In this document: piece by piece, positions 4,361 through 29,512 of the stretch
Layout of the letters: every line of letters begins with the position of its first letter
Numbering within the stretch: position 1 is the stretch's first letter
Position numbers and translations under genes: made by a program
Notes under the pieces: generated by a model
Told to the model about the DNA's origin: nothing
What the model saw: only the letters and a program-made list of their open reading frames with translations
The model's database searches: none
Origin: Thermoplasmata archaeon
GTDB taxonomy: Archaea > Thermoplasmatota > Thermoplasmata > Methanomassiliicoccales > Methanomethylophilaceae
Reading direction: 5' to 3'
DNA length: 64,000 nucleotides
NCBI GenBank assembly: GCA_015063285.1
Contig: SUST01000002.1
Location: forward strand, 62,001 to 126,000

Positions 4361-5530
4361 TCATCCTTTCTTCAAAGAGAAATACTCTTGTTGAATGGAT
4401 TTTGATAATTGAATTAAATTATTACGCTGATTAATCACATCATTTTTCATCTTCTCAATCTGCTGGACAAATGCAGCAAAAGATTCCTGAATCGGAATAG
4501 GTGGAAGTCCAATAGACAATTTTTCAAAAAATGACTGTTGTATTCTCTGCTGACCGGCAGTACCTTTCATCTTATTGGAAGCCAATTGTCTAAGAGTATC
4601 TGACTTAAGAAGATATTTAAGCCATACCGCATTAGAAACGCCGGGGATGGGACGAGAAACATGGATTTCAGTCGTACCAAATGCTAAACCATTTGTACAG
4701 CCATCTGCAATTGCAACTTTACCATTCTCAAAAGAAGGCGTTATTTTAGCAAAAATAACATCCCCATCTCTAAAGTAAGAATAACCTTCACGGACTTCAC
4801 CTAATTGTTTAACATCATTAAGACTAATGACGCCATTGGAACCAATATTTTCCATCGGAACAAAAGAAACAAGAATTTCGTCATCCAAATGATTAATTTC
4901 TGATTTACTCGGATTAAAAACCATACATTCCATAAATGGTTTGGGAGAGTATTTAGGAAAGAAAAACGGATCTCCGAACAACTCATTAAATTTGGATTTT
5001 ATTAATTCATCGTAAAGGCCAATTAACGTGTCATACCGTTCGATCATATCAGTTATTTTATTAATATTCTCAACAAACTTTTTTTGAATATCGACACTAT
5101 ACAACCTAATAGGGATTTTTTGTAAAAGATATATGGTAAGCTCAGGTCTAACAGATCCTCTGCATATCGCGTCTATAATCTGCAAATAAAGATCGCTTTT
5201 TAAAAGTAATTCTAAATATTCTGGATAGATTTCATCACCTGTGAGTTTAAAAACTACATAACGGGAACTGACCAAAACCCTATCCATAACATTTTGATAA
5301 CCTAAGGAGCCAACATTTGCTCTTAGAGGATTGTAAGCAAAATGACCTCTAGGGACTATCTTATAAGTTGTCTTGTCATCGCTAGACATATCTTTATCAA
5401 AAAACGAAGTACAAAAACCTCTATCGCGAGTTACACTATATACTGGAATCTCATCATCAGATTTATTTCTAATATTATCAGCAACAACATATGGCTTTAA
5501 AAGAACAATAGAACCAGATACCGATGTCAT
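4361..5530 (-). CDS. hsdS: Type I restriction specificity subunit HsdS
   Basis: A 389-residue protein of the length expected for HsdS, with two target-recognition halves. The first half ends in the linker FVENINKITDMIERYDTLIGLYDELIKSKFNELFGD and the second ends in QQIEKMKNDVINQRNNLIQLS; both look like the alpha-helical spacer repeats that set the distance between the two half-sites. The typical phrase GTAGQQRI before the second helix supports the call. The start codon follows the hsdM stop directly (TGA then ATG). The gene is visibly richer in A+T than hsdM and hsdR, as expected for the variable, frequently exchanged subunit. The DNA target cannot be read from sequence. Confidence 0.93.
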   Translation of the reverse strand: MTSVSGSIVLLKPYVVADNIRNKSDDEIPVYSVTRDRGFCTSFFDKDMSSDDKTTYKIVPRGHFAYNPLRANVGSLGYQNVMDRVLVSSRYVVFKLTGDEIYPEYLELLLKSDLYLQIIDAICRGSVRPELTIYLLQKIPIRLYSVDIQKKFVENINKITDMIERYDTLIGLYDELIKSKFNELFGDPFFFPKYSPKPFMECMVFNPSKSEINHLDDEILVSFVPMENIGSNGVISLNDVKQLGEVREGYSYFRDGDVIFAKITPSFENGKVAIADGCTNGLAFGTTEIHVSRPIPGVSNAVWLKYLLKSDTLRQLASNKMKGTAGQQRIQQSFFEKLSIGLPPIPIQESFAAFVQQIEKMKNDVINQRNNLIQLSKSIQQEYFSLKKG

Positions 5531-7042
5531 TCAGATCAAATCCTTGAACTGTTTTAACGATTGGATAGTCTTTTCAGTATTCGAAATAATATCATCAAGA
5601 ATCTCTGAAGGTGGCCTATACTGAATCTCTTTAATGACGATCTCCTTGTATTCCTTAAAAGTCAAGTTATAATTATGCTCCACAATCTCATCTTTCGATA
5701 CCATGAATGATTTATCTAATCTAGTTCTACCGACTTCATTATCAAGATTAAAATAACGATTTAAGACATCAGGAATATCATTATCATCAATAGGATCATG
5801 TCTTGTATCTAGAGTAAAACCGTCAGATTCCATATTATAAAACCATACCTTGTCTGTACCTCCACAACCAGTCTTATTGAAAATTAGAATAGATGTAGAA
5901 ACATCTGAATATGGAAGAAAAACTCCTTTCGGCAAAGTAATTGCAGCAATTAATTGATTTTTATCAACAATTTCTTTTTTAATCGATATTGCGGCCTTTG
6001 TTTCCCAGAATAAAACACCTTCAGGAACAATGACCGCACACCTACCGCCCACTCTCAGCAACTTAACCATAAGAGAAAGGAAAAGAAGTTCAGTTTTTGT
6101 ACAATCAGTTATAGTAAGAAGATCGGGTTTAACCAAGATTTTGTCTGTGATCTTACCGGTGAAAGGCGGATTCGCAAGTATGAGCGAATACTTATCATCG
6201 ATAACATAATCATCCTCGAGACTGTTCCTGTGAACTATGTCTGGATTCTCGATCCTATGCAACATCATATTCATTGCGGCAATCCTGATCATATGCGGAT
6301 CCTTGTCAAAACCGGAGAACATCGAATTATTGTAATGGTAAAGAACCGAGTCCTCACGAAGCTTATCCTGATGGTGTTCAGTAAGATATTCCGCAGCAGT
6401 GATGAGGAAACCACCGGTTCCACATGCAGGATCGGCGATTACATCGTCCGTATTCGGTTGCATGAGATCGACCATGAGGCGAATGATGTGCCTTGGTGTC
6501 CTGAACTGACCGTTTTTCTTCTGCGTTGATAGTTCTCCGAGCAGATACTCATAGAGGTCTCCTCTGACATCATTGTTGTTCTCACGCTCTATTATCTCAT
6601 AGATTTCATCGAGATTGTCGACGACACGGGTGAACATAACGGGGTTAGGGATGGTGAACTTGGCATCCGCCATGAACTTGCTGAATGCACTATCCTTCTC
6701 ACCATGAAGTGTCTTAATGAATGGAAATACACCGTCTCTGACGGTCGCGAACATTCTTTCAGGATTCATATCCTTGAAAACGGACCATTTGAAATCATGC
6801 TTATCCCAGACTATATTGTTCTCCTCAGAGGAAAAAGAACCGACAAACTTGCTCTCGTAAGGGATTCCCAACAGATTTGATGTCTCGATTCCATCGATAT
6901 CCATATCGTCCAGATCGTGAATGAACATCAGATAAGTGATCTGTTCTATGATGGAAACTGATTCAGTGTCACTACCTCCGGCCCAGAAAAGATCCCAAAG
7001 CTTCTTGACACTATTCTTCATCTCTGTTGAAAGACCCGACAA
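5531..7042 (-). CDS. hsdM: Type I restriction-modification methyltransferase HsdM
   Basis: A 503-residue N6-adenine methyltransferase. The AdoMet-binding motif DPACGTGGF is near residue 203 and the catalytic motif NPPF (ILANPPFTGK) near 288, with a family-typical YLLGEL-x-GQFRTPRHI block before motif I. It modifies the HsdS-defined site and is also needed for restriction. The start is taken as TTG at 7042, which has GGAAGGGG four bases upstream; an internal ATG seven codons later lacks a binding site. It is the first gene of the operon. The long open region upstream (7043-7186) probably holds its promoter. Confidence 0.94.
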   Translation of the reverse strand: MSGLSTEMKNSVKKLWDLFWAGGSDTESVSIIEQITYLMFIHDLDDMDIDGIETSNLLGIPYESKFVGSFSSEENNIVWDKHDFKWSVFKDMNPERMFATVRDGVFPFIKTLHGEKDSAFSKFMADAKFTIPNPVMFTRVVDNLDEIYEIIERENNNDVRGDLYEYLLGELSTQKKNGQFRTPRHIIRLMVDLMQPNTDDVIADPACGTGGFLITAAEYLTEHHQDKLREDSVLYHYNNSMFSGFDKDPHMIRIAAMNMMLHRIENPDIVHRNSLEDDYVIDDKYSLILANPPFTGKITDKILVKPDLLTITDCTKTELLFLSLMVKLLRVGGRCAVIVPEGVLFWETKAAISIKKEIVDKNQLIAAITLPKGVFLPYSDVSTSILIFNKTGCGGTDKVWFYNMESDGFTLDTRHDPIDDNDIPDVLNRYFNLDNEVGRTRLDKSFMVSKDEIVEHNYNLTFKEYKEIVIKEIQYRPPSEILDDIISNTEKTIQSLKQFKDLI

Positions 7043-8170: not shown

Positions 8171-10200
8171 TTATCTGCGCTTTATGAGAAGAATTACTAA
8201 TGCAATTCCCATAATGGCGATGATCCCAATCAGGGTCAGAGTCATATAAGTCAATTCAAACCCGAAAATGACAATGACATCGGATCCTGGGGAAGGAGTA
8301 GGTTGTGGTGTTTCTTTCCAAACAGCTTTGAAGGTAATATCGGAATTACCCATCGTCATCAAAGAACCTGGATAATAAATAGAACTATCATAACTCCAAC
8401 CGTCAAAAGTATAGCCTGTTTTTGATCCATAATAATATGCAACAGAAAACTTACTTCCAGATTGGACATGTTGAGAAGGCACAGAATCAGAACCACCCTT
8501 AGTATCATAACTGACGGTGTATGTTGTTACAACATGCTCTACCCAGTCAGCAACGAAATACATGTCTGAAGTACCCATCGTGAAAACGTTGGAAGGATAG
8601 TACTTCTTTCCATTACAAGTCCAACCATCAAAATCATATCCCGTTTTAGTAGGGGAAACAGAAGGAATACTTGCATTGCTACCCTCATAGACTGTTAACG
8701 AAGGAACAGAAGGAGTACCTCCATTAACATCGAAATAAGCTGTATGAGAAGGAACCGATTTCCAACTGGCAACAAATGTCAAATCAGAAGAACCCATGGT
8801 GATCCGATAACCAACATTATACGTTGTTGAACCTAATGTCCAACCGACAAAAGAATATCCGGACTTAGTACCAGAATATGATGGAAGAGAAAAGACTTCA
8901 CCTTCAGAAACAGTTATCGATGGAACCGTTGAAGAACCGCCATTGACGTCATAATAAACAGTATGCTTGGCTCCAGACCAGTGTGCTGTTAGTAAAAGAT
9001 CACTAAAAGGCATAATCTTAGTGGATCCAGGATAAGCAATGGTACCATCACTGCACGACCAATAATCAAAGGTATATCCTGTTTTAGTACCTGTATAACT
9101 GGGAACAGAAAACGAATCTCCGGGAGATGCTGAGAATGATGTAGGAGGTGACAACGAACCCCCATTAGCTGAAAATGAAACAGTAAAGGTAGGTACATAC
9201 TCCCCTTGATAGGTCATAGAAGTAGTTGTTCCGGACCATATTCTACCCCACAAAGCACCATTATACAAATCTACATTCGTTAACTCTACACCATCCTTAT
9301 AGAAATGCACATTTCCAAAACCGCCAATTGCAGTGCCTTCTTTGATTCCAGCGGGGAATTTGTACCCAGTGACACCAGTGTCGCCAAAAACAATACCATC
9401 TAGATGAGTCAGCGAATGAGGGTATGCTATCATGCCTGTGATTTTAGTACTCATGAATGCACCCGTGCCTATGTAAGTCAAAGTAGACGGGAAAGAAATA
9501 GATATCAATCCAGCTTCTTGGAAGGCAAAATTATCTATTTTTTTCAGACCGTCATGTAAAGTAACGGAATATAGTTGTGTAGCACGCCAACAAAGACTCT
9601 CAGGAATTACTTCAACAGTTGAAGGGATATCTAGAGTTCTAATATTAGTAAGAGAAAGAGCACGTGCGCCTATAGTCTTAACAGATTTCAAATCAATACT
9701 CGATAAACTTGAACCAGCAAATGCTCTTTCACCTATGCTGGTAGTATTTGGAGATAATTTAACTGAAACAATAGCTGAACCCATAAATGCATCTTTTCCA
9801 ATTGATTCAAGGTTAGGTAGATCCAAAGACGTTATTGAGGATGATTTGAAGGTTCCTTCGCCTATCTGCTGAATAGAAAAAGGTATAAAGAAATCATCAA
9901 AACTAGTACTCTGAAAGAGATAATTACCAAGATAAACGATTCCATCCGAAATCCTGAGACTAGTTAGACTCTTCCTGTATAGAGGTGATGAGCCATCAGA
10001 ATAATCATATGTTCTGGCCTGCTCTTGTGTCGTAGTAATGTCGGCAACACCCGTATCTTATTCCACGTAAGAGTCACACCAGACCCTATCTGTTCTACAA
10101 CAATGTCGTCAGCATCAATAGGATCATCACTAACAAAGAACATAGATGATACTAATAAGAACGATACAAACAGCATCGTAGCTTTAACAGCCGTCTTCAT
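8171..10200 (-). pseudogene. BspA-type LRR / InlB-repeat adhesin, one frameshift
   Basis: The minus strand begins at 10200 with a clear signal peptide (MKTAVKATMLFVSFLLVSS) and reads about 47 residues to ...TLTWNKI. From about 10058 the matching continuation (DTGVADITTTQEQARTYDY) is in another frame, which stays open to 8171. Restoring one base near 10058 gives about 676 residues: signal peptide, five or more BspA/LRR_5-type leucine-rich repeats (IGKDAF, IGERAF, IGTGAF blocks), four InlB B-repeats (x-NGG ... GYxFxxW ... LxAxW), and a C-terminal hydrophobic anchor ending IKRR. Such proteins are surface adhesins in gut microbes. The break is either a real inactivation, phase variation, or a sequencing error. 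Confidence 0.8.
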
Positions 10201-12471: not shown

Positions 12472-12651
12472 AGAGGAAAATACGGATGAATGATAAAAAT
12501 CTCATTCATAAAAACCTTAGAAGTTAATTCTATGATAACTTAGATAAAATGAATGATTCGAACAAAATCGGACGATCTCTGAAGAAAACAGCGATTGAGA
12601 TGTTGACCTATATTCGTCTCAGTTTCAACAGAAACGAAAATAAGAAGTTGT

Positions 12652-14030: not shown

Positions 14031-14348
14031 TCATTGCTGTTTGGTATATTTCCTGCGTTGGTATTCCTCGACCGCCAATCTCCTGCGCTCCTCCTCGGAG
14101 AGGCCTTCATAGGAAGCGTCCTTGGGGAACCTCGATTCGTACTCCCTGAGGTTGCGCTCTATCTCCTCCTGCTCTATGTCGATGCCGTAGAGCGGCGTGG
14201 TGGCCTTGCGGAGGACCGCCTTGCCGTCCTCGACGGACCAGACGACGAGGTCGTCGCCCTTGGTGAGGTTCAGCATCTCGGCTAGAGGCCTGGGGACGGT
14301 GACCCTGCCGCTTCTGTCGTAGCCGACCTTGGATCCTATCCTGAGCAT
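14031..14348 (-). CDS. AbrB/SpoVT-type DNA-binding protein
   Basis: A 105-residue protein whose first 50 residues form a SpoVT-AbrB swapped-hairpin domain (KVGYDRSGRVTVPRPLAEMLNLTKGDDLVVW), followed by an acidic/basic helical tail of about 50 residues. Proteins of this type are transcription regulators or antitoxins. GAGGCGAT precedes the ATG. It lies nine bases after the 126-aa gene and so is probably co-transcribed with it. No obvious toxin partner is adjacent. Confidence 0.82.
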   Translation of the reverse strand: MLRIGSKVGYDRSGRVTVPRPLAEMLNLTKGDDLVVWSVEDGKAVLRKATTPLYGIDIEQEEIERNLREYESRFPKDASYEGLSEEERRRLAVEEYQRRKYTKQQ

Positions 14349-17070: not shown

Positions 17071-18570
17071 TCACTCGCTTACGGAGTAAGCTCTAGCCTG
17101 ACGGCTGATAAAATAACTGTCCGGCTCTGCGAAAGGTCCTGACATGACCAGATCGTTGTTCTGAGGAATGAATTCCAGATCGGATACTGCGAATGGGATG
17201 GACTTTGCAAAGTCCGTCAGGGTCTGGTCGTTGGCCTTGAGGCGCTCCTTGAACTGGAGGTACGTGGTCATCACGACGCTGTAATGCTGGGCGAAGCAGA
17301 CTATCTCGTTGTCCTGGATGTACCTGACGTAGTTGCCGATGGAGTCGTGGACTCCCTCGTACACTCTGAGGAGCTCCCCGCATTCGCTGCATCTTCTGAT
17401 CTTGTACTGCCTGTGGATGCCGATGCGCTTGATCTTGTTGCGGCCGATTCCTCCCCATTCCCTGAGACGGGTCTTTAGGAGAAGCTTCTTCTCGACCCAT
17501 TGATCCCAGTCGACGCCTGAGAGGTCGCCTACCATGCGGCCTTTGCCGTTGAACTCGTCCTCGTAGTCCTTGTCCTTGTACTTGCCTTTGCCTGACTTGA
17601 CTCCGGGGATCATGAGATTCATGGTCTCCTCGAACCAGTCGATGTCGTCGGGATCCCTCTCTGCTATGCCGAGGCCCATGTGGGTGAAGAGATAGGCCAG
17701 CGTGTGCCTTATGGAGTTGATCCTCTCATGGGGGTGGACCTTCTTTATTATCCAACCGGGATGTAGCCTCCTGAACTTGTTGGTCTTGATATGGCCATAG
17801 ATCAATGAATGGAAGTGAGGGGCGAGCTGCCACTCGGTCTGCTTCTGACGCCAGGGATGGAATAGGGTGACCCCTGCGTTGCCTCCGCATTCCTGGAGGT
17901 CGTCTACTATGATCCTCAGCATCTCATCGTATTCGTCCTTGGTCTGCATCATGGACTTGGCCCATTCCTGAGGTGGTGACACGACCCAATGGCCGATCTC
18001 GGGACGGTGACCGGACTGTTTCTCGATGAGCTTGGAGTATCTGAGTAACGGTTTCTCAGTCTCGACACCCTGTCTTAAGGCCTCATCGTTCATGCATTCC
18101 GGACAGTGGAGGGACCAGCAATGCACCCTCTTGCCTTTGATGAAGTGCTCCGGATGGTCGGGGCACATGCTGTATACTATGCCCCCTTCCCTAGAGCGTA
18201 TGAAGCCGCACCCCTTCTCCTGAGGGCGGTTAAAATCGTGGCCGGGCATGGTCCACTCGATGAACTCGTGGAACTCTGGACGGAAGAAGACGTTGTTGCC
18301 TGAGGGGTCTTGGAATACCGTCTTTCCTTCCTGAACCTGACGGTATGCTTCCTGAATCGGTATTCCGACTTGCATTGCAAGTCTAAAGTACTCTATGGCA
18401 GGATACTTGGAGGACTGTATGGGAAGGTTCATGACGTAGTCGACTACCTGATGCCTCTTGAGAGCAGCTTGTTCCGCCAGGCCTTGCCTTTCGGCTAGAG
18501 CGAAATTGGCCATAAGGGAGGAGAGCCTGCGCTGCTCTGCCTTGGAATCGTAGTCTTCGATGGTTCTCAT
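17071..18570 (-). CDS. rep: HUH-type rolling-circle replication initiator (Rep)
   Basis: The start at 18570 is chosen because the frame upstream is the GC-rich structured block with no RBS. The 499-residue product has, in order, a Cys/His cluster (C136, C151, C156, C159), HWVVSPP near 194-200, the metal-binding HUH motif PHFHSLIYG (H252, H254), and RHTLAYLFTHMG with a candidate catalytic Tyr at 293. A zinc ribbon beginning CSECG lies in the C-terminal third. I recall the same order (HxVxSPP, PHFH, YLxxH) in Rep proteins of haloarchaeal plasmids and viruses. Such enzymes nick one strand at the origin and stay attached through the Tyr. The gene lies beside a hairpin-rich candidate origin. Confidence 0.85.
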   Translation of the reverse strand: MRTIEDYDSKAEQRRLSSLMANFALAERQGLAEQAALKRHQVVDYVMNLPIQSSKYPAIEYFRLAMQVGIPIQEAYRQVQEGKTVFQDPSGNNVFFRPEFHEFIEWTMPGHDFNRPQEKGCGFIRSREGGIVYSMCPDHPEHFIKGKRVHCWSLHCPECMNDEALRQGVETEKPLLRYSKLIEKQSGHRPEIGHWVVSPPQEWAKSMMQTKDEYDEMLRIIVDDLQECGGNAGVTLFHPWRQKQTEWQLAPHFHSLIYGHIKTNKFRRLHPGWIIKKVHPHERINSIRHTLAYLFTHMGLGIAERDPDDIDWFEETMNLMIPGVKSGKGKYKDKDYEDEFNGKGRMVGDLSGVDWDQWVEKKLLLKTRLREWGGIGRNKIKRIGIHRQYKIRRCSECGELLRVYEGVHDSIGNYVRYIQDNEIVCFAQHYSVVMTTYLQFKERLKANDQTLTDFAKSIPFAVSDLEFIPQNNDLVMSGPFAEPDSYFISRQARAYSVSE

Positions 18571-18850
18571 AGTATACTGCAATGAAGGCTCTGAGGGCCT
18601 TCGGTCTTGATCGTGAATCGTGCCCCTGCTGGGAAGCGGCGACTGACGTCGCCGATTGGAAGGCGGCCGGCGGTCGCCTGGGCTCGCGCCCCAACGGCGC
18701 CCGCTGCGGCCTGTTTGAGTCGCCCGACCCACTCGGGCGATGCCCTCGGGGTCTGCGCCGTCCGCTGACGCGTCCGTCGGGCGACGTCGATTTGGATGCC
18801 CCGTGGTCCCCGTGCGGTGCGGGGGCGGAGGCCCGCAGGGGCACCACGGT
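18571..18850. other. Candidate replication origin: GC-rich hairpin block
   Basis: 280 bases between rep and the next gene, far more GC-rich than either side. Hairpins: CGGCGAC-TGAC-GTCGCCG (18637-18654); GGGC-TCGC-GCCC (18680-18691); a perfect 8-bp stem TCGCCCGA/TCGGGCGA (18720-18740); and a long stem at 18801-18849 (CCGTGGT, CCCC and TGCGG paired with their complements, two single-base bulges). This matches what double-strand and single-strand origins of rolling-circle replicons look like. The open frames across it are a result of base composition, not evidence of a gene. Confidence 0.65.
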
Positions 18851-19180
18851 TCAGTGCTGGTCATCCCGGGTGGGATGCGTGAGGTCTACGATATGGAGCT
18901 TCGGTCCGTTGACGTACGCTCCATAGTGGGAGATCCTGTCGAGGTAGCCGGCGCGGCTGATGCTGGCGGCCATCATCCTCTCCCTCTCGATGTCCTTCAG
19001 CATCTGCACCACGGGATGGTCCTCGAGTCCGAGGAACCTGTACGGGAACAGCCAATCGTAGAACCGTTTGCTGTCCTTCGGCTCCGACAATGCGATCTCC
19101 GGAGGGAGGGGGATGCTTGAGGCCTCCCTCATGGAGAGGATCCTGTCCAGTTCCTGGTCGGTCGATATGTTGGCGCTCAT
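18851..19180 (-). CDS. Hypothetical protein (109 aa), coupled to the ATPase
   Basis: The ATG at 19178-19180 overlaps the ATPase stop (ATGA), so this frame rather than the longer open frame starting at 19711 is taken. The product is soluble and helix-rich (QMLKDIERERMMAASISRAG) with no known motif. The gene ends at the edge of the candidate origin block. Its place after the ATPase suggests a role in DNA handling or assembly, but this is inference. Confidence 0.65.
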   Translation of the reverse strand: MSANISTDQELDRILSMREASSIPLPPEIALSEPKDSKRFYDWLFPYRFLGLEDHPVVQMLKDIERERMMAASISRAGYLDRISHYGAYVNGPKLHIVDLTHPTRDDQH

Positions 19181-21268: not shown

Positions 21269-21519
21269 CTTGCATACCTCCTTCTTGGGGTGGCGATGAT
21301 GTAGCCTGCCAGCAGGATTCCTGCGATCAGGAGTATAGATGGCCATACCTCTGCGATGAACTCGTCAAGGGTCATCCTGTTCTCGAGCATGGCCATGTAG
21401 GCGTCCATCTGCGTCATGGAGTCCTCCATGGAGCTTGCGTTATGGAGGTCGACAATGGTGAAGATGCCACCTATCGCCGTTCCGACTGCCGAGAGTATGG
21501 GTAGGAACCATACCATCAT
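21265..21519 (-). CDS. 84-aa two-TM protein
   Basis: ATG 21519 overlaps the stop of the 313-aa gene (ATGA), which favours it over the in-frame GTG at 21531. Hydrophobic helices lie near residues 3-22 and 60-76, separated by a Met- and acid-rich amphipathic stretch (SSMEDSMTQMDAYMAMLENRM). The C terminus is basic (TPRRRYAR). Probably an assembly or minor structural protein of the element. Confidence 0.65.
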   Translation of the reverse strand: MMVWFLPILSAVGTAIGGIFTIVDLHNASSMEDSMTQMDAYMAMLENRMTLDEFIAEVWPSILLIAGILLAGYIIATPRRRYAR

Positions 21520-22457
21520 ATCATCCCCCACATGCCTAGACGTCTGATCCTGACGATGTACGCTATCGCTATGACCAGCACGAAGATGATGGCCAGCACC
21601 GCGGGGTTGGAAAGCAGTGAGACTATGTCCCTGAGCATGTCCGGGAGGTCCTGATAGGACGCTTCCTCCCAGATGGCGTAGACGGTCTTGGAGTAGACGA
21701 TGTTCAGCGGATCCGATGAGTTCACGCTGTCCGCGTTGGCCGCTATCAGAGGGAAGTCGTCGGAGACATCGTTCGGCTGGTTATCCCCATTCACCGTGCT
21801 CCAGCCCTTGAAGGAGAAGCCCTCTTTGGTTGGGTATGCGGATGTGGTGTCGAAGAAGTGCATGCCGATGTCGTCTGAGGCCAATACTTGCCAGTAGTAT
21901 GTCTGGCAGACCGAACCTCCCAGGCTGTCGAAGGTCAGGGCGTAGGTATGATGAACCTGGTCCTGCACGATGACTGATCCGTTCCACTGTACGTCCAGAT
22001 GGATCTTGATTAGGAACGTCGATACCTCGGTATCGAACACGTTAGGGTAGGTGCAGCGGAAGTGGATCCAGTAGTCGCCGTGGGTGTCCTCGGATACCTG
22101 CTGGAGGGCAGGGGAGATGGCTATCGTGAGCTTCGCCGATTCGTAGTTGCCGTATGCCGATGTGACGTTCCATGAGATCCATGACGGGAGGCAGTGGGAT
22201 TCCACGTAGGAATAGCCTGTGTTCCCGGAGTCCGCACGATTGATCAGATAGGCCAGGAAGAACTTGGCCGATTCCGATTCATGGTCGTAGACCACGTACT
22301 GGGTAGGGTCGTCGGACTTCAGATTGGTCATGGTTATCATGAAGGTCTCATCCGCTGCCGGAGGCTGTACATAGTTCACATCCTGGGCATCGACCACAGG
22401 GATGGCGAGGGTGAGGGCCAGCATGACGATGGCCATCGTTGCGATAGCTGACCTCAT
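21516..22457 (-). CDS. Exported protein with InlB-type repeat and C-terminal anchor
   Basis: The start at 22457 gives a signal peptide (MRSAIATMAIVMLALTLAIP...VDA). The 313-residue product has an extracellular beta-rich region, one InlB-like repeat at about 195-265 (YALTFDSLGGSV ... EGFSFKGWS ... TVYAIW), and a C-terminal transmembrane helix (about 284-303) ending in RIRRLGMWGMI. The topology is that of a virion or cell-surface spike. The frame upstream of 22457 has no RBS. The start overlaps the stop of the gene at 22454. Confidence 0.75.
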   Translation of the reverse strand: MRSAIATMAIVMLALTLAIPVVDAQDVNYVQPPAADETFMITMTNLKSDDPTQYVVYDHESESAKFFLAYLINRADSGNTGYSYVESHCLPSWISWNVTSAYGNYESAKLTIAISPALQQVSEDTHGDYWIHFRCTYPNVFDTEVSTFLIKIHLDVQWNGSVIVQDQVHHTYALTFDSLGGSVCQTYYWQVLASDDIGMHFFDTTSAYPTKEGFSFKGWSTVNGDNQPNDVSDDFPLIAANADSVNSSDPLNIVYSKTVYAIWEEASYQDLPDMLRDIVSLLSNPAVLAIIFVLVIAIAYIVRIRRLGMWGMI

Positions 22458-22840
22458 CTCTGACCCCTCCACTGCCAATCGTCGTATCCGTACCTGCTGT
22501 CGTCGTACCTCATCCTGTCCTTGGGAGGTAAGATGAGACGGACCACCACGTAGAGGATCAGGGCCGCGAATGTGAGTCCGATCAGTGTGGCCGTCGTATC
22601 CTCCGAGAGTCCGGTGGCGTCCGCTATAGCGGATACCCCGGAACGCCAGGTGGAATAGATCACTGCGACTATCCCTCCGGTGCCTCCGATCTTCAGCACG
22701 TTGCCTATCTTCCATGAAGAGACCCATGAGCTGAATCCCTTCAGACCCGTTCCGATCGCCTCGCCTGCCTTGAAACCGACCTTGGCTCCTCCCGATCTGG
22801 CTGCGGATGAGAATACCTTGAATATAGATGTCCAGGACAT
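22454..22840 (-). CDS. Membrane protein with two hydrophobic segments (128 aa)
   Basis: A Ser/Gly/Lys-rich N terminus (about residues 1-45) is followed by hydrophobic segments at about 49-64 and 85-104, then an Arg/Asp/Tyr-rich tail (RMRYDDSRYGYDDWQWRGQR). GATGATACC precedes the ATG. It lies four bases after the 611-aa spike-like gene. A membrane-embedded structural role is plausible; no family recognised. Confidence 0.65.
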   Translation of the reverse strand: MSWTSIFKVFSSAARSGGAKVGFKAGEAIGTGLKGFSSWVSSWKIGNVLKIGGTGGIVAVIYSTWRSGVSAIADATGLSEDTTATLIGLTFAALILYVVVRLILPPKDRMRYDDSRYGYDDWQWRGQR

Positions 22841-22844
22841 GGTA

Positions 22845-24680
22845 TCATCCCACGGTGATAGTGTAGGAGCCGTCGTCGCTGTATGTGATAACAGGCATCA
22901 CGATGCAGGAGGCGGTAGGTGCGCTGGTGAAAGCGATTGTGGTCTCCCAGACTGCATAGAGCGTCGTGGTCCCATTGTAGGAGACCGCTATCGATGCTCC
23001 GGGCTGGTATGACGGCGTCTTCGCTGTGCTCGATGTCGCCCATCCGAGGAACACGCTTCCCGACTTGGTCGGAACGGTGTTCGGAATGGTGAACGTATGG
23101 TTGCCTGTAGATGTTCCTGTGTAGTTCTGGTTACTTGGTGCACCGCTACCTCCGTTGGCGTTGAAGTTCAGATGACAGGTGTATGAGACCTGACTCCAGA
23201 CCGCGTACAGTGTGGTGGTTCCGTTGTAGGCGACCGCGATGGATCCTCCGGGCTGGTAAGCCGCTGAGGTGGCGTTGTTCGATGTCGCCCAACCGAGGAA
23301 TGTGTAACCCGATCTGGTCGGAGATGTCGACGGGATCGTGAACGTGTGGTTACTGGTGGATGTTCCCGTATAGTTCAGATTACCGGGAGCACCTGACCCT
23401 CCGTTGGCGTTGAAGTTCAGATAACAGGTGTACGTGTTCTGCTGCCAGACCGCATACAGCGTGGTGGTTCCGTAGCTGAAGGAGTACGAGCCGCCTGCCT
23501 GATATGCCGCTGAGGTGGCGTTGTTCGATGTCGCCCAGCCTTTGAAGGTGTAGCCCGATCTGGTCGGTACTGTTGAGGACAGGGTGACGGACTTCGTGGT
23601 CGATGATCCCGAGCCTCCGTTGGTGTTGCCCGGAGCTCCGGATCCTCCGTTCGCGTTGTATGCTATCGTGAAATAGTACGTAGTGGAAGTCGAACTTGTC
23701 ATCTGTTCCGCTGGATAGTACTTCCCGCCCGAAGCCGCAGTCATGGAGTCGGATCCGCCTCCGGGATAGGTTAAGCTGGTTGCCTTGACCATGTTGTAAC
23801 AGCTGGAGGAATACGAAGTCGTGGTGACCATTCCGGAGGATTGGGATCCCGAGGTGGTCGACGACGCTCCGTACCAATCGACATCGATCGTGGTGCCTGA
23901 CTGGACTGTGTAGGTCTTGCTGGAGGATGTGACATTGGAATTATCCACACCCAGGAGCTTGAACGATGCCCAGTTCCCTTTGTACACGGTTATCGTGATG
24001 TTGGTGACGTTCTGTTCCCAGACTGCATAGAGCGTTTTGGTGCTCTTGTATCCGACGCTTATGGTGCCACCGGGCTGGTATGATGCCGATGTGGCTGAAC
24101 TGGAAGTTGCCCATCCTTTGAACGTGTAACCGGATTTCGTCGGGGTTGTCGAGGAGATCGTGAACGTGTGGTTGCTCGTGGATGTGCCTGAGTAGGACTG
24201 GTCGCTGGGTGCTCCGGATCCGCCGTTGGCATTGTACTTCAGGTAGCATGTGTACTGGTTGGACGAGGATGCCGCCGTGACGGCGAAGGAGACTTCGAAA
24301 GAATCGTCCTCCGTGGTCCAGTCCGAGAACAGGATGTAGTACGTGCGTGCAGTGACGGAAGAGGATGCCTGAAGGGTCAGACCAGAGGAGTTCCAAGTGA
24401 CCGTGATGCCTGAGACGGCGTTGCCGTCGCTGACATTGGACGAGGTACCGACCCCGATCGAGATGTCATGCTGATAGAAGTACCTGTTATCGTAGGTAGA
24501 TCTAGCTGCCATAGAAGGACATGCCTGAGCCCATGTGTATGTGGAGCTGGAACCCTGCTGGACGGTCATGCTCGCGGATCCGTTGTCCAGAGCATCGGAC
24601 TCCTCCGATACGGCGAGGGCTACGCCCGCGAAGGAGATGGCTACGATCAGAAGGGCCAGGCCCATAATCTTGTGGTTCAT
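22845..24680 (-). CDS. Exported spike-like protein, new N-domain plus InlB repeats
   Basis: ATG 24680 follows GGTGATAACC; the in-frame GTG at 24689 is part of that site. The 611-residue product has a signal peptide (IMGLALLIVAISFAGVALA), an N-terminal domain of about 110 residues (LDNGSASMTV ... YTWAQACPSM ... FSDWTTEDDSFEVSFAV) that also occurs twice in the neighbouring 727-aa protein, then four InlB-type repeats of about 75-83 residues, and a short end module (FTSAPTASCIVMP, TYSDDGS) also found inside the 727-aa protein. There is no C-terminal membrane helix, so it is either released or held by partners. Likely host-attachment or surface protein of the element. Confidence 0.78.
   Translation of the reverse strand: MNHKIMGLALLIVAISFAGVALAVSEESDALDNGSASMTVQQGSSSTYTWAQACPSMAARSTYDNRYFYQHDISIGVGTSSNVSDGNAVSGITVTWNSSGLTLQASSSVTARTYYILFSDWTTEDDSFEVSFAVTAASSSNQYTCYLKYNANGGSGAPSDQSYSGTSTSNHTFTISSTTPTKSGYTFKGWATSSSATSASYQPGGTISVGYKSTKTLYAVWEQNVTNITITVYKGNWASFKLLGVDNSNVTSSSKTYTVQSGTTIDVDWYGASSTTSGSQSSGMVTTTSYSSSCYNMVKATSLTYPGGGSDSMTAASGGKYYPAEQMTSSTSTTYYFTIAYNANGGSGAPGNTNGGSGSSTTKSVTLSSTVPTRSGYTFKGWATSNNATSAAYQAGGSYSFSYGTTTLYAVWQQNTYTCYLNFNANGGSGAPGNLNYTGTSTSNHTFTIPSTSPTRSGYTFLGWATSNNATSAAYQPGGSIAVAYNGTTTLYAVWSQVSYTCHLNFNANGGSGAPSNQNYTGTSTGNHTFTIPNTVPTKSGSVFLGWATSSTAKTPSYQPGASIAVSYNGTTTLYAVWETTIAFTSAPTASCIVMPVITYSDDGSYTITVG
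23089..23660 (-). repeat. In-frame tandem repeats of about 249 bp
   Basis: The stretch TCCGTTGGCGTTGAAGTTCA occurs at 23151 and again at 23400, 249 bases (83 codons) apart, within long blocks of near identity that encode successive InlB-type repeats; a third, more diverged copy follows to the right. High DNA identity makes gain or loss of a repeat by recombination likely. Confidence 0.7.
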
Positions 24681-24698
24681 GGTTATCACCCGGAGGTT

Positions 24699-24714
24699 AG
24701 GGGCCGAGGCCCCT
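24699..24714 (-). terminator. Intergenic hairpin AGGGGCC-GA-GGCCCCT
   Basis: Lies between the stop of the 727-aa gene and the start of the 611-aa gene. A 7-bp stem with no T run suggests a processing site or partial terminator that sets the ratio of the two spike-like proteins. Confidence 0.5.
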
Positions 24715-24719
24715 TGGTT

Positions 24720-26903
24720 TCAGTAGTAGCCTCCGTACTGGAGCGCCTTTCTTCTCCTGTAGATGACGAATGCCACTATGGCGATGATGAGAATTATCGC
24801 CGCAATGATGTACATCAGGTACTCGGAGAGGATATGCTTCATCAGAGGCACATCGACGACGATTGTACCTGTGACCCTGTCGGATCCGTGCTCGTTGACC
24901 CCGGTGCAGGAATATGTGTACGTTCCATTCTCGGAATAAGTATGGAAGACGGTAAATCCCTGTCCGGTGGTTCCGTCTCCGAAATCCCAGAGAACGGTGT
25001 CGGCGTCCTCGCCTGTCCAGACGAACTTGAATGTCCTCGTTCCGTCGGAGTAGACTGTAGTGGAGTCGTCTCCGGGGGTCACGGGTGCGGGTGTTGTGCT
25101 TCCGCCCGAGGTGTTACCTCCAGAGGTGTTTCCGCCGCTGGTAGAGCCTCCGCTGGTGTTGCCACCGGTGCCTGAGGATCCTCCGGATGTCGTCTCGGTC
25201 ACTGAGAACACGATGGTGAACAGGTCATCCTCTGTGGTCCAGTCGAAGAAGGAGATGAAGTAGTCTCCGGGTTCGACGGCCGAGGTCGCCGCTATGGTGA
25301 GACCTGTGGAGGCCATGTTCACAGTGATCCCGGGGACCTCGGCTCCGTCTGCGGGCCTGAAGGTGTCCCCGATACCGAGCGAGAACTCGTGGGTGTAGAA
25401 AGCAGCATCATCGAAGGTGGATGTCTCCAGCATCGAGGGGCATGCCTGCTCCCAGGTGTATGTCGCTGTCGATCCTTTTACGACCGTGAGCTGGGCTGTT
25501 CCATTGTCGTATGCTGCCTCTGTCGCATCGAGTCCGCCCTCTCCGGGGAGGAACAATGATGCGAGTGGCCCCATGAATGCTCCCAGCGATCCGAGGAGGG
25601 AGAAGGATCCGTCATCGTCGTAGGTGTATACGGGGATGACGACGCATGCGGCCGTGGGCACACTTGTGAATGCGGCGGTCTTCTCGACGTTGAACGTGAC
25701 GTTCTGCGACTTGACCTGTCCTCCTGCTGAGGTCGCGGTCAGAGTGAACGAGACCGAAGTGACGGAGATGTCATTGGGGATGGTTCCCGTCACGACTCCC
25801 TGGCTGAGGACCAGCCAATCGTAATCCGATGTCAGCGACCAGGTGCATCCGGCGGAGATGTTCACAGTCGGGCTGTATGTGTAGTTCTTTCCGGAATAGT
25901 AGATCCCGGTCGGTGCCTGTGATGTGATGGTCATGGTCTGCTCCGCGACATGGAAGACGATTTTCTTGGTCGCGGTCTGGGAAGGTCCGGCGGTGGTGAA
26001 TCCCTTGAGGGTTATGGTGAAGTCACCGAACTCCGTGGGGGTTCCGCTGATCTTTCCGTTGCTGAGGGTGACCCCTGCGGGGAGGTTCCCGGACTTTCCG
26101 AAGGTCATGTTCACGTTGCCTGCGAGATCAATATCGGTCATCGCGGAGTTCTGGGTGAGGTTGTACGATGTGCTCACTGAATTCGCGATCTGAGCGACAG
26201 GATAGACATTGAAGCTTACCGTCTGCACAGCCTGCTGTCCTCCGGGCGTGGTGGCCTTGATGGAGTAGTAGTACGTGGTCATCGAGGTCACGCTGGGGGC
26301 TGTTCCCGATAAGGTGCCGTTGCTCAGGGTGAGCCAAGATGCGTTGGTCTTTCCGGTAACTGTCGTGGTAGTGAATGTGGAGGATGCCACGTTGACTGTA
26401 GGTCTGTATGTGACGGTGGATCCCGTCAGGGCATCGACCGCGGAGGGGGATGTATAGTTCACGTTGCCGGAACCGGAGCCTGAACCGGATCCTGCCGCTG
26501 TGACCGCGAAGGATACCTCGAAGATGTCGTCCTCGGTGGTCCAGTCGAAGAACTTGAGGTAGTATGTGCCCGTGGCTACAGAAGAGGTCGCCGCCAGGCT
26601 GAGTCCGGATGCGCTCCACGAGATCGTAATACCGCTGACCCTTGCGCCGTCCATCGGACCCTGGCTGGTGCCGACTCCGTATGAGAGGTTGTGGGTGTAG
26701 AACGGCTGACTGTCATACGTCGATGTGGCCGCCAGACCGGGACAGGCCTGGGCCCATGTGTAACTGGATGTCCCTCCCTGGGCAACCGTCATGCTCGCCG
26801 ATCCGTTGTCCAGAGCGTCGGTATCCTCTGTGAAGAGGACCGCGCATCCTCCGAACAGGGCGAGGACGGAGACCAGGGTGATCATGAATAGCTTGTTCTG
26901 CAT
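24720..26903 (-). CDS. Membrane-anchored multidomain spike-like protein (727 aa)
   Basis: Signal peptide (MQNKLFMITLVSVLALFGG); N-domain copy 1 at about 32-135 (LDNGSASMTV ... WAQACPGL ... FFDWTTEDDIFEV); Ig/cadherin-like repeats of the putative-Ig (He_PIG) type at about 150-405; the module FTSVPTAACVVIP, YDDDGS near 410-432; N-domain copy 2 at about 460-565 (AYDNGTAQLTV ... WEQACPSM ... FFDWTTEDDLF); a Gly/Ser/Thr-rich linker; a PKD domain (about 605-680, VLWDFGDGTT ... YSENGTYTYSC); and a transmembrane helix near 692-714 followed by RRRKALQYGGYY. The plan suits a virion spike or surface receptor-binding protein. The N-domain is not one I recognise. Confidence 0.8.
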   Translation of the reverse strand: MQNKLFMITLVSVLALFGGCAVLFTEDTDALDNGSASMTVAQGGTSSYTWAQACPGLAATSTYDSQPFYTHNLSYGVGTSQGPMDGARVSGITISWSASGLSLAATSSVATGTYYLKFFDWTTEDDIFEVSFAVTAAGSGSGSGSGNVNYTSPSAVDALTGSTVTYRPTVNVASSTFTTTTVTGKTNASWLTLSNGTLSGTAPSVTSMTTYYYSIKATTPGGQQAVQTVSFNVYPVAQIANSVSTSYNLTQNSAMTDIDLAGNVNMTFGKSGNLPAGVTLSNGKISGTPTEFGDFTITLKGFTTAGPSQTATKKIVFHVAEQTMTITSQAPTGIYYSGKNYTYSPTVNISAGCTWSLTSDYDWLVLSQGVVTGTIPNDISVTSVSFTLTATSAGGQVKSQNVTFNVEKTAAFTSVPTAACVVIPVYTYDDDGSFSLLGSLGAFMGPLASLFLPGEGGLDATEAAYDNGTAQLTVVKGSTATYTWEQACPSMLETSTFDDAAFYTHEFSLGIGDTFRPADGAEVPGITVNMASTGLTIAATSAVEPGDYFISFFDWTTEDDLFTIVFSVTETTSGGSSGTGGNTSGGSTSGGNTSGGNTSGGSTTPAPVTPGDDSTTVYSDGTRTFKFVWTGEDADTVLWDFGDGTTGQGFTVFHTYSENGTYTYSCTGVNEHGSDRVTGTIVVDVPLMKHILSEYLMYIIAAIILIIAIVAFVIYRRRKALQYGGYY

Positions 26904-26912
26904 GGTATCGCC

Positions 26913-27872
26913 TCAGTAGTACCTGTTGTACTGTCTCCCGCCCTTCCTCTTGAAGTAGAGGTCGGGGTTCTTCTGGACGACGCTGGTCACTGCCTGCTTG
27001 TCCTCGGGGGACGCCTCGGGGTTGGTCAGCACCTTCAGTGCGTAGCTGGAGTTGCCGTTCCTGTTCCTGCCCTGGAAGGCCTTGACGAAGAACTTCTTCT
27101 CCTTGGGTGTCATGGAGTCGAACTCCTCCTGGGATTTCCAATGGGCAGCCCAGAATCCCTTCCTCTGGACCTGGGGTCCGGCCGCCTGTGCGACATCATC
27201 GGGGGCGAACATGTGGGGTGCGTTGTTCCTGAGCCTGACTAGGTTGACCTTGGTCTCCTCGGGAGTCTGAGGGTTGCCAAGGACCTTCTGGAAGTACCTG
27301 GTCCTGGCGACGTCGCTCTTCAGTCCGGAGACGGTCTGGTAGAGGTCGTCGTAGCTGCGGACGTCGGAGATCGGCCTCCTCTGCCCGCGGTCTGCATTGA
27401 AGTAGCCGTTGCGGGGCCTCTGGTTGGCCGCTCCGTAGTACCTGGAGAAGCCGTTCGCCCTGCCGTTGCCCTGGAAGCGCCTTCCGTCGCCTCCGTCCTG
27501 GAAGCCGTCGTCCCTGCCGTAGGGGGTGAAGCGCTGTCCTGTGTTCTGGTCGTAGTAGAATCCGTCGGAATCCTGCACCATGCCTCTGGGCCTGTATCCT
27601 CCGGAGTATCCCCTTCCCCTCAGCCAGGATCCCGTGTTCTTCTGGGATGCCATCTGCTCGTCGGAGAGGAACTTCTGAGGGTTCTGATCCCTGTACTGCC
27701 TGACGATGCTCAGATTCTCCTGGGGGGTGTTGGGGTTGGTCATGATCTTGTTGTAATAGCGCGTGGCTCTCAAGGGCGACATTCCTGCGAAAATACGGGT
27801 TGCCTCGCTGGGAGAGAGCCTCTGGATGCCCCCGTTCTGGGGGTCTGTACCTAAGTTGTTTTTCGAAGCCAT
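26913..27872 (-). CDS. Basic protein with three NPxTPxE repeats (319 aa)
   Basis: MASKN at 27872 is taken as start, with GTGAG just upstream. Three repeats of about 35 residues occur near 35-75 (YYNKIMTNPNTPQENLSIV ... PQKFLSDEQ), 190-225 (YFQKVLGNPQTPEETKVNL ... PHMFAPDD) and 275-308 (YALKVLTNPEASPEDKQAV ... PDLYF). Between them is a Gly/Arg/Tyr/Asp-rich low-complexity section (about 90-165). It is not exported and is strongly basic, so binding nucleic acid in the particle is possible. The 126-aa protein at 14358 carries one copy of the same repeat. Confidence 0.72.
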   Translation of the reverse strand: MASKNNLGTDPQNGGIQRLSPSEATRIFAGMSPLRATRYYNKIMTNPNTPQENLSIVRQYRDQNPQKFLSDEQMASQKNTGSWLRGRGYSGGYRPRGMVQDSDGFYYDQNTGQRFTPYGRDDGFQDGGDGRRFQGNGRANGFSRYYGAANQRPRNGYFNADRGQRRPISDVRSYDDLYQTVSGLKSDVARTRYFQKVLGNPQTPEETKVNLVRLRNNAPHMFAPDDVAQAAGPQVQRKGFWAAHWKSQEEFDSMTPKEKKFFVKAFQGRNRNGNSSYALKVLTNPEASPEDKQAVTSVVQKNPDLYFKRKGGRQYNRYY

Positions 27873-27890
27873 TTTTCTCACTTCTATGAT

Positions 27891-28077: not shown

Positions 28078-28293
28078 TCACATCCCGTTCTCCCAGACCT
28101 TGATCACCGTGGGCTTGTTGGAATACCTGGAGTCCTTGCTGAGCCTGATACGCGTGGTGTCTCCCATCTCGAGATATGACATGCAGGCGTGCTCGGCATC
28201 CTCCTGCGTGGAGTAGCGGAACCTCTTCTTTCTGAGTTCTCCGTCGCTCCACAGGAACCAGCGGTCCACGATGTACGGGTGCTCGGAGATCAC
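28078..28293 (-). CDS. Hypothetical protein (71 aa), GTG start
   Basis: The GTG at 28291-28293 overlaps the stop of the upstream gene (GTGA), the pattern seen throughout this operon, so it is chosen over the longer frame. Sequence VISEHPYIVDRWFLWSDGEL with many basic residues; no known motif. Followed by a GC-rich gap of about 200 bases before the 319-aa gene. Confidence 0.55.
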   Translation of the reverse strand: MISEHPYIVDRWFLWSDGELRKKRFRYSTQEDAEHACMSYLEMGDTTRIRLSKDSRYSNKPTVIKVWENGM

Positions 28294-28688
28294 TGTCCTG
28301 TCCTGAACTTGGCCATCATCTTCTGGCCAGTCGCGACGTCTGCTCTGTTCACGCTGGTGTTGAGGTCGACCCCGTCCATGATCTGGGCGAATTTGACGGC
28401 GAAGTCGGCGAAGTTCTTCCACCATTTGCCGTCCTTGGGGAAGTTGACGAACTTCCCGTCGATCATCGTGACCAGGGAAGGGCGCTCGTCCTTGTACTGT
28501 CCGGTCGACTCGTCGTAGTCGCTGACGATCTTCAGGCCGACGTAGACCCCGCCCTCGTTGAAGGTGGAGACCTCCTTCTTGATCGTCTCGTTGCCGGTCT
28601 CGATGTTGAGCTGTCCCATCTGGGCCCTGATCTCTGCTGCGTTCACTGCTCCGTTTCCTGCTGTTGCTTTTCCTGCTGTTTCTGCCAT
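28290..28688 (-). CDS. Hypothetical protein (132 aa), first gene of element operon
   Basis: GGGAGGAAAG precedes the ATG. The product is soluble: an Ala/Gly-rich N terminus, a central part (GGVYVGLKIVSDYDESTG, then PSLVTMIDGKFVNFPKDGKWW) and a helical end. First-gene position in rolling-circle viruses often holds an early or DNA-binding protein, but nothing in the sequence shows this here. The upstream leader carries element copy 4 (28723-28756) and the TGTCCACC repeats. Confidence 0.62.
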   Translation of the reverse strand: MAETAGKATAGNGAVNAAEIRAQMGQLNIETGNETIKKEVSTFNEGGVYVGLKIVSDYDESTGQYKDERPSLVTMIDGKFVNFPKDGKWWKNFADFAVKFAQIMDGVDLNTSVNRADVATGQKMMAKFRTGQ

Positions 28689-28760: not shown

Positions 28761-29020
28761 TGTCCACCATGAAGGCTTACTAAGCAGCCGAAAAAAGGCG
28801 ATTGTGACAGAACAAATGGGATATGAACAGGCCAGAATGCCGATTAGTTAGGGTGTTTCAAAGAAGTGCTGGCTTACCCTGTGGTGACTCCCACACTGTC
28901 CACTTTCTTTATCCACCCAGATCATCAAAACCTTGGTTTGGCATTGTCCACCATTTTTTTGCGTCCTGTCCACCACAAAGCCGGTCCTGTCCACCTGTAG
29001 CTCTTGGTGCATTGTCCACC
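28761..29020. repeat. TGTCCACC direct repeats (iteron-like)
   Basis: TGTCCACC occurs in the same orientation at 28761, 28945, 28967, 28988 and 29013, with a one-mismatch copy TGTCCACT at 28897. The last four are spaced 22, 21 and 25 bases, about two helical turns, and most are followed by A. The block lies in the 452-bp gap (28689-29140) between the first element gene and the rightward host-type gene. Spacing and number fit iterons bound by a replication protein or a repressor operator array. A further single copy lies at 16440. Confidence 0.75.
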
Positions 29021-29140: not shown

Positions 29141-29512
29141 ATGGGAAAATACGTCATATTCAAGACATCGGACGAGGGCTACAAATTCAACCTTGTCGCC
29201 GGAAACAACGAAGTGATCGGAACCTCTCAGGTGTTCAAGTCTCTGGATTCCGCAAAGAAGAGCACAGAATCCGTCAAGAAGTTCTGCGATGCGGAAATCG
29301 AGGACCAGACCCTGAAGAACCCCGAGTCCAAGAAGTACCCCAAGTGGGAGATCTATCTTGACAAGGCCGGGGAGTACAGGTTCAGGCTCTGTGCTTCCAA
29401 TGGAGAGAACCTCCTGGCTTCCGAAGGCTACACAGCAAAGGCGAATGCCAAGAAGGGAATCGAATCCATCAAGAAGAACGCTGCTTCCGAGATAGTCGTC
29501 AAAAACGATTGA
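29141..29512 (+). CDS. DUF1508/YegP-type protein, two repeats
   Basis: A 123-residue protein made of two YegP-like (DUF1508) repeats: residues about 3-48 (KYVIFKTSDEGYKFNLVAGN ... SLDSAKKSTESVKK) and 68-115 (KWEIYLDKAGEYRFRLCASN ... KANAKKGIESIKKNA). Family members are small and of unknown function. A TATA-like CGTAAATATG (29110-29119) about 25 bases before the ATG suggests a leaderless mRNA. It probably marks the first gene outside the virus-like element. Confidence 0.85.
   Translation: MGKYVIFKTSDEGYKFNLVAGNNEVIGTSQVFKSLDSAKKSTESVKKFCDAEIEDQTLKNPESKKYPKWEIYLDKAGEYRFRLCASNGENLLASEGYTAKANAKKGIESIKKNAASEIVVKND

Follow-up and report, generated by a model that had tools for sequence, protein, structure and literature searches.

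Archaeal tyrosine recombinases that target tRNA genes (SSV, pNOB8, SNJ2 and pT26-2 types) share with the locus described here the type of recombinase, the duplication of the tRNA 3' end and the position of the integrase gene beside the attachment site, as far as they are treated in the available part of the source (PMC8371274). Their attachment sites are described there as single cores needing some ill-defined extra flanking bases, and no array of tRNA-end copies within an arm is mentioned for archaeal sites in that part (PMC8371274). Suicidal integrases of the SSV type carry the attachment site inside their own gene, which is split on integration, whereas the resident gene at our locus is an intact frame of 361 amino acids with its stop codon beside a repeat array.

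In attI1 of class 1 integrons, the direct repeats DR1 and DR2 are supplementary integrase sites, which have been proposed to act as topological filters (PMC8946536). The array examined here is similar in having an Xer-like recombinase, probably of two domains, and core-type direct repeats beside the crossover (copies at about +43, +64-65, +85-86 and +110-111 from the tRNA end, all on the same strand), but attI1 has two repeats and is a cassette platform, whereas up to seven are found here, in a tRNA-integrating element. Of the systems compared here, attI1 with DR1/DR2 is the one that the array would most resemble in its mode of action. The attP site of phage lambda also has several integrase sites (candidate ones in our case) in one arm beside the core; the lambda arm sites are, however, unlike the core, and a separate domain at the N-terminus recognises them, whereas the TGTCCACC repeats here equal the core, being the tRNA-Ala 3' end TGTCCA and the flanking CC, so that arm repeat and core are not distinct in sequence and the site is not of the lambda type. 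In the TnpI/IRS system of Tn4430, the recombinase itself binds accessory direct repeats resembling core half-sites, in a resolution site inside the transposon rather than in an integration site as here. A limited literature search for integrases of Methanomethylophilaceae in connection with tRNA returned no paper.

The integrated element and its ends

The window, i.e. the whole stretch of 64,000 nucleotides that was analysed, is G000:C2:62001-126000 (positions on contig C2 of the source genome, G000). The nearest named relatives of this genome are MAGs from rumen and omasum labelled Methanomethylophilaceae and Methanomassiliicoccaceae. Coordinates below are those of the window unless a contig or locus is named. 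Judged from the comparison of sequences, the segment 28869-29020 very probably represents the attR of an element of ~32.4 kb (C2:58488-90888), inserted at the 3' end of tRNA-Ala(TGC) and bordered by a relic arm. The ends of the element comprise the following features:

C2:58414-58487, intact tRNA-Ala(TGC) gene at attL
C2:58481-58578, attL array, starting exactly at the tRNA-Ala(TGC) 3' end and followed by the integrase gene
C2:58581-59666, XerD-like tyrosine recombinase of 361 amino acids beside attL (PF00589, 1.9e-18)
28290..28688, - strand, terminal gene of the resident element, 132 amino acids, no Pfam match
28869..28874, + strand, CTGGCT motif of the P arm, the inverted form of CCAGA/AGCCAG, which lies on the opposite side
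28889..28902, + strand, attR core TCCCACACTGTCCA, identical to the 3' end of the tRNA-Ala at C2:58414-58487
29141..29512, + strand, host flank gene encoding a DUF1508 protein (PF07411, 3.2e-32)

The tRNA-end 15-mer TCCCACACTGTCCAC at C2:58473-58487 has one further occurrence on the contig, at C2:90889-90903 (window 28889-28903), and from this duplication of the tRNA 3' end at both ends follow the length of the element (~32.4 kb) and the assignment of attL to the tRNA and of attR to the window. In another genome (G006) the site is empty and a DUF1508 gene comes directly after tRNA-Ala(TGC); since a gene of the same kind stands to the right of the window array, the DNA there is host. The preliminary description had placed a junction between element and host at this point, with a host-type gene beyond it, and the empty site and the DUF1508 gene bear this out. 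Its view of the repeats as resembling an array of protein-binding sites is likewise upheld. A duplicated tRNA 3' end, a PF00589 gene beside attL and an empty site in a relative, which together mark a tRNA-integrating attachment site, were all found. A related element of ~34 kb occupies tRNA-Ala(CGC) on contig C3 (attR at C3:64783-64797, tRNA 3' end at C3:99006-99035).

As to its cargo, the resident element encodes a type I restriction-modification system (hsdR 1520-4351, hsdS 4361-5530, hsdM 5531-7042), and much of it consists of large surface-type proteins of the Listeria-Bacteroides-repeat, LRR and PKD kinds (window 8171-9826, 21516-27881), which have relatives in the C3 element. The G000 genome holds eight matches to the resident integrase, at tRNA-Glu, Lys, Ser and Ala genes (including C7, C8, C18 and C2:42851).

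The repeat array

The copies and the motif among them are arranged as follows:

28761..28768, + strand, lone TGTCCACC in the element-side (P) arm, 136 bp from the other copies
28897..28904, + strand, TGTCCACT, the tRNA end itself with two flanking bases
28904..29020, + strand, array of class A, interpreted as a P' arm surviving as a relic, aligning copy for copy with the arms at L158, L163, L161 and L203
28910..28917, + strand, degenerate copy TATCCACC, which is TGTCCACC in four other class A arms
28917..28921, + strand, CCAGA motif
28945..28952, + strand, TGTCCACC copy at about +43, in a register conserved across arrays
28967..28974, + strand, TGTCCACC copy at about +64 to +65, in conserved register
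28988..28995, + strand, TGTCCACC copy at about +85 to +86, in conserved register
29013..29020, + strand, TGTCCACC copy at about +110 to +111, final base block common to class A arms

Six direct repeats had been reported at first. Five of them are exact copies of TGTCCACC (28761, 28945, 28967, 28988, 29013), all in the same orientation as claimed (+ strand), and the spacing of 22, 21 and 25 bases given for the last four is correct; the sixth, at 28897, is the inexact TGTCCACT, one of two copies with a single mismatch (TATCCACC at 28910 being the other). The 8-mer occurs seven times in the 64-kb window, where 2.5 occurrences are expected, and the four starts within 69 bp are its sole such cluster. 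No other 8-mer in the window has four occurrences in 90 bases, and 40 dinucleotide-preserving shuffles of the window gave no four-copy cluster of any 8-mer. Pattern searches of the whole genome (1.79 Mb) returned 104 copies of TGTCCACC, with close pairs at three places only (C2:58494-58578; C2:90945-91020, which is the window array; and C3:64618-64719), all of which are integrase attachment sites. The repeats thus hold against the possibility, raised in the preliminary description, that the 8-mer might be equally common and equally clustered elsewhere in the genome. They are not CRISPR repeats, as had been stated, since they measure just 8-10 bp and their spacers align between genomes. For the lone copy at 28761 no counterpart was seen in other P arms, and it may be a chance occurrence. 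When viral contigs were scanned for repeats in pairs, the matches listed were mostly scattered single pairs.

The same array occurs at other tRNA-Ala genes next to an integrase, in this and in related genomes. In most arrays from several genomes the copies stand at fixed distances from the tRNA end (41-43, 63-65, 84-86, 109-111, 131-134 and 156-159), mostly 21-25 bp apart, and this register is kept across several genomes and two genera. In the alignment of the arms, 33 of 41 motif columns are conserved vs 28 of 76 spacer columns (p = 5e-6, related sequences being taken as independent). Among the tRNA-Ala flanks surveyed across the genus, an extra TGTCC[AG]CC, expected in ~1% by chance, was present in 11 of the 14 flanks with an integrase or its remnant vs 6 of the 46 without (Fisher p = 9e-6, with related sequences again treated as independent).

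Several genomes have, directly after tRNA-Ala, the TTATTCCATCAAAAGTGAC-like start of a different insertion (L160 9010-9450; L164; L253; L286), and in G018 an insertion of the TTATTCCATCAAAAGTGAC type sits between tRNA-Ala and the array.

Origin of the array in the window

When an element integrates at a tRNA end, the integrase-side P' arm goes to attL and the old chromosomal flank stays at attR. The window array is not part of the resident element but belongs to the chromosomal half of attR. Aligned with the resident arm (C2:58481-58578), it matches copy by copy, but the spacers differ, which makes it a diverged homologue and not a duplicate of that arm. Going by these alignments, the best interpretation of the array is that an earlier integrant left it there as a relic of its P' arm.

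We compared seven attR ends, each of which has the CTGGC motif, a copy of the tRNA end and a gene homologous to the terminal one (28290-28688). In none of the seven is this homologue more than about 350 bp from the tRNA-end copy. What follows past the tRNA copy is plain flank in three (G017 C12, G008 C13, G026 C53) and a P'-type arm, in some cases with an integrase fragment, in the other four (G027 C14, G001 C61, G000 C2, G000 C3); the array therefore belongs to whatever adjoined the tRNA and not to the element. This bears on the suggestion of the preliminary description that the repeats head the element's operon, as iterons bound by Rep or as an operator of the AbrB-type protein. An operator or origin would be expected at every attR end with the terminal gene, yet three of the seven lack the array, and such a role is thus unsupported. 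Moreover, the array is found outside the element core and also stands beside the integrase at tRNA-Ala genes.

The C3 element has different arm types at its attL and attR. The simplest reading of these sequences is that the same tRNA has been used repeatedly, the arm of an earlier element being left over. Both the window array and a solo array in G024 part from complete arms just past the copy at about +110; excision at this copy would fit the loss of the earlier element, a deletion being equally possible. The earlier element would have gone by later deletion or misplaced excision, leaving its arm behind, and re-integration of the present element at the tRNA would have put this relic on its far side. 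Relic arms would make earlier integrations readable at the tRNA genes of gut methanogens.

Integrase targets and a second motif

Relatives of the integrase at 31-60% identity also target other tRNAs, and the repeats partly follow the target. Between +37 and +54, the 3' end of tRNA-Ala is found in 11 of the 16 Ala loci, which are not independent as their integrases form one clade of the tree, and in none of 42 other loci; the Glu 3' end is found there in two of the four Glu loci and in 0/54 others, and the two Glu types occupy separate branches of the sister clade of Ala. Scored with 9-mers over all tRNA targets, an excess was seen for Ala (1.57), Glu (1.97) and four Ser loci (1.36); there was none at Lys or Gly loci, and most Leu targets fail in this score too. 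Two explanations offer themselves: a different mode of action of the arms at Lys, Gly and most Leu targets, or tracking in only one part of the family. Some loci of Ala integrases (about 49-57% identity) also lack an exact same-strand copy at +37 to +54. We would therefore restrict target tracking, as it appears from these counts, to Ala and Glu only.

A second motif seems to be indifferent to the target. Of the 58 integrase loci, 51 have CCAG between +11 and +26 from the tRNA end, whatever the tRNA (about 4% expected), and six of the seven loci without it have CTGG; on the P side, CTGGC precedes the tRNA-end copy by ~20 bp at all seven attR sites. Together, the two motifs seem to flank the core as an inverted pair that does not depend on the target.

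Proposed function and alternative explanations

The alignment of the integrase to two-domain XerD begins at residue 39, which leaves little room for an arm-binding domain of the lambda type; PF00589 was the only domain found, and the structure model is poor (pLDDT 47). Because the copies are identical to the tRNA end, associated with integrases, held in register, conserved and, in part, adapted to the target, and because the integrase matches a two-domain XerD, they are most likely core-type integrase sites. As accessory sites of this kind they are good candidates, and the sequences suggest that the integrase of the element binds a row of look-alikes of its target. The explanation as a whole, an attR with a relic arm whose copies are, or were, read by the integrase as extra core-type sites, we regard as probable.

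In the circular element, the arm would have the crossover core on one side and the integrase gene on the other. The XerD-like integrase, presumably of two domains, would bind the tRNA 3' end, and the same DNA-binding surface would also grip the tRNA-end copies, which lie ~two helical turns apart (21-25 bp); a spacing of 25 bp is, however, no clean multiple of 10.5, which counts against this model. Extra integrase monomers might then load or orient the complex and so favour integration at tRNA-Ala, and the inverted CTGGC...CCAGA pair could be a second, target-independent site. An arm series with fixed register, tied to the integrase clade and partly to the tRNA target, offers a concrete model for the extra flanking bases, and for how direction and a change of target might be possible in an integrase that lacks an arm-binding domain. 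More tentatively, and with somewhat less than even confidence, this might be extended to a family of archaeal integrases in Methanomassiliicoccales: a row of target-tRNA 3' ends beside the core, read by the same domain and rewritten upon a switch of tRNA, CTGGC/CCAGA remaining constant and the arms persisting as fossils of earlier integrations.

The copies could instead be arm sites of another protein, such as a directionality factor or a host architectural protein, their likeness to the tRNA having arisen otherwise. The element has genes for small regulators (e.g. the MazE/AbrB-type protein at 14031), the arm is where such proteins bind in other systems, and a spacing of 21-25 bp fits many DNA-binding proteins; we nevertheless consider this unlikely, as an unrelated protein does not explain why the repeat is the 3' end of the target and gives way to that of Glu in some relatives that target tRNA-Glu. 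Less likely still, the copies are stacked scars, i.e. duplicated cores from successive rounds of integration and loss, which now have no function. The repeated use of one tRNA and the divergence of the window and G024 solo arrays from complete arms just past the +110 copy agree with such a history, but scars would vary in position and number, whereas the register is constant over several genomes and two genera, and the copies are more conserved than the spacers.

That the copies are iterons for a replication initiator of the element appears very improbable. Direct repeats at 21-25 bp do resemble iterons, and an ORF at 17071-18864 contains the HUH-like motif APHFHSLIYG, but the array is outside the resident element and missing at three of the seven related attR ends, and the putative Rep gene is ~10 kb away from it. 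HUH initiators, moreover, typically nick a hairpin rather than using long iteron arrays. The ORF has no Pfam match, its motif is as in rolling-circle initiators, and its called start seems too far upstream. Even less credence is given to a coding repeat, in which the reverse complement GGTGGACAG would stand for Gly-Gly-Gln repeats in the C-terminal tail of the integrase. One class of arm is indeed translated in this way, the integrase tail at L168 (3037-4158) reading ...VTGGQ...EGGQ...EGGQ through the array; the resident integrase, however, stops before it (L158 12581 vs 12481-12578) with the copies still kept, and the class A arms are non-coding, which largely refutes this explanation. Transposon ends (TGT-starting repeats of the TnsB or IS21 type) were rejected as well: the window holds no inverted counterpart of the array, and a tRNA with a tyrosine recombinase directly adjoins it.

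An inverted partner, 5-7 bases off, accompanies the +43 copy in many arms (e.g. TGGACAATTTTATTGTCCA), much like a complete recombinase core; such arms, with the pair at +30 to +52, are those of L204, L206, L210, L215 and L291.
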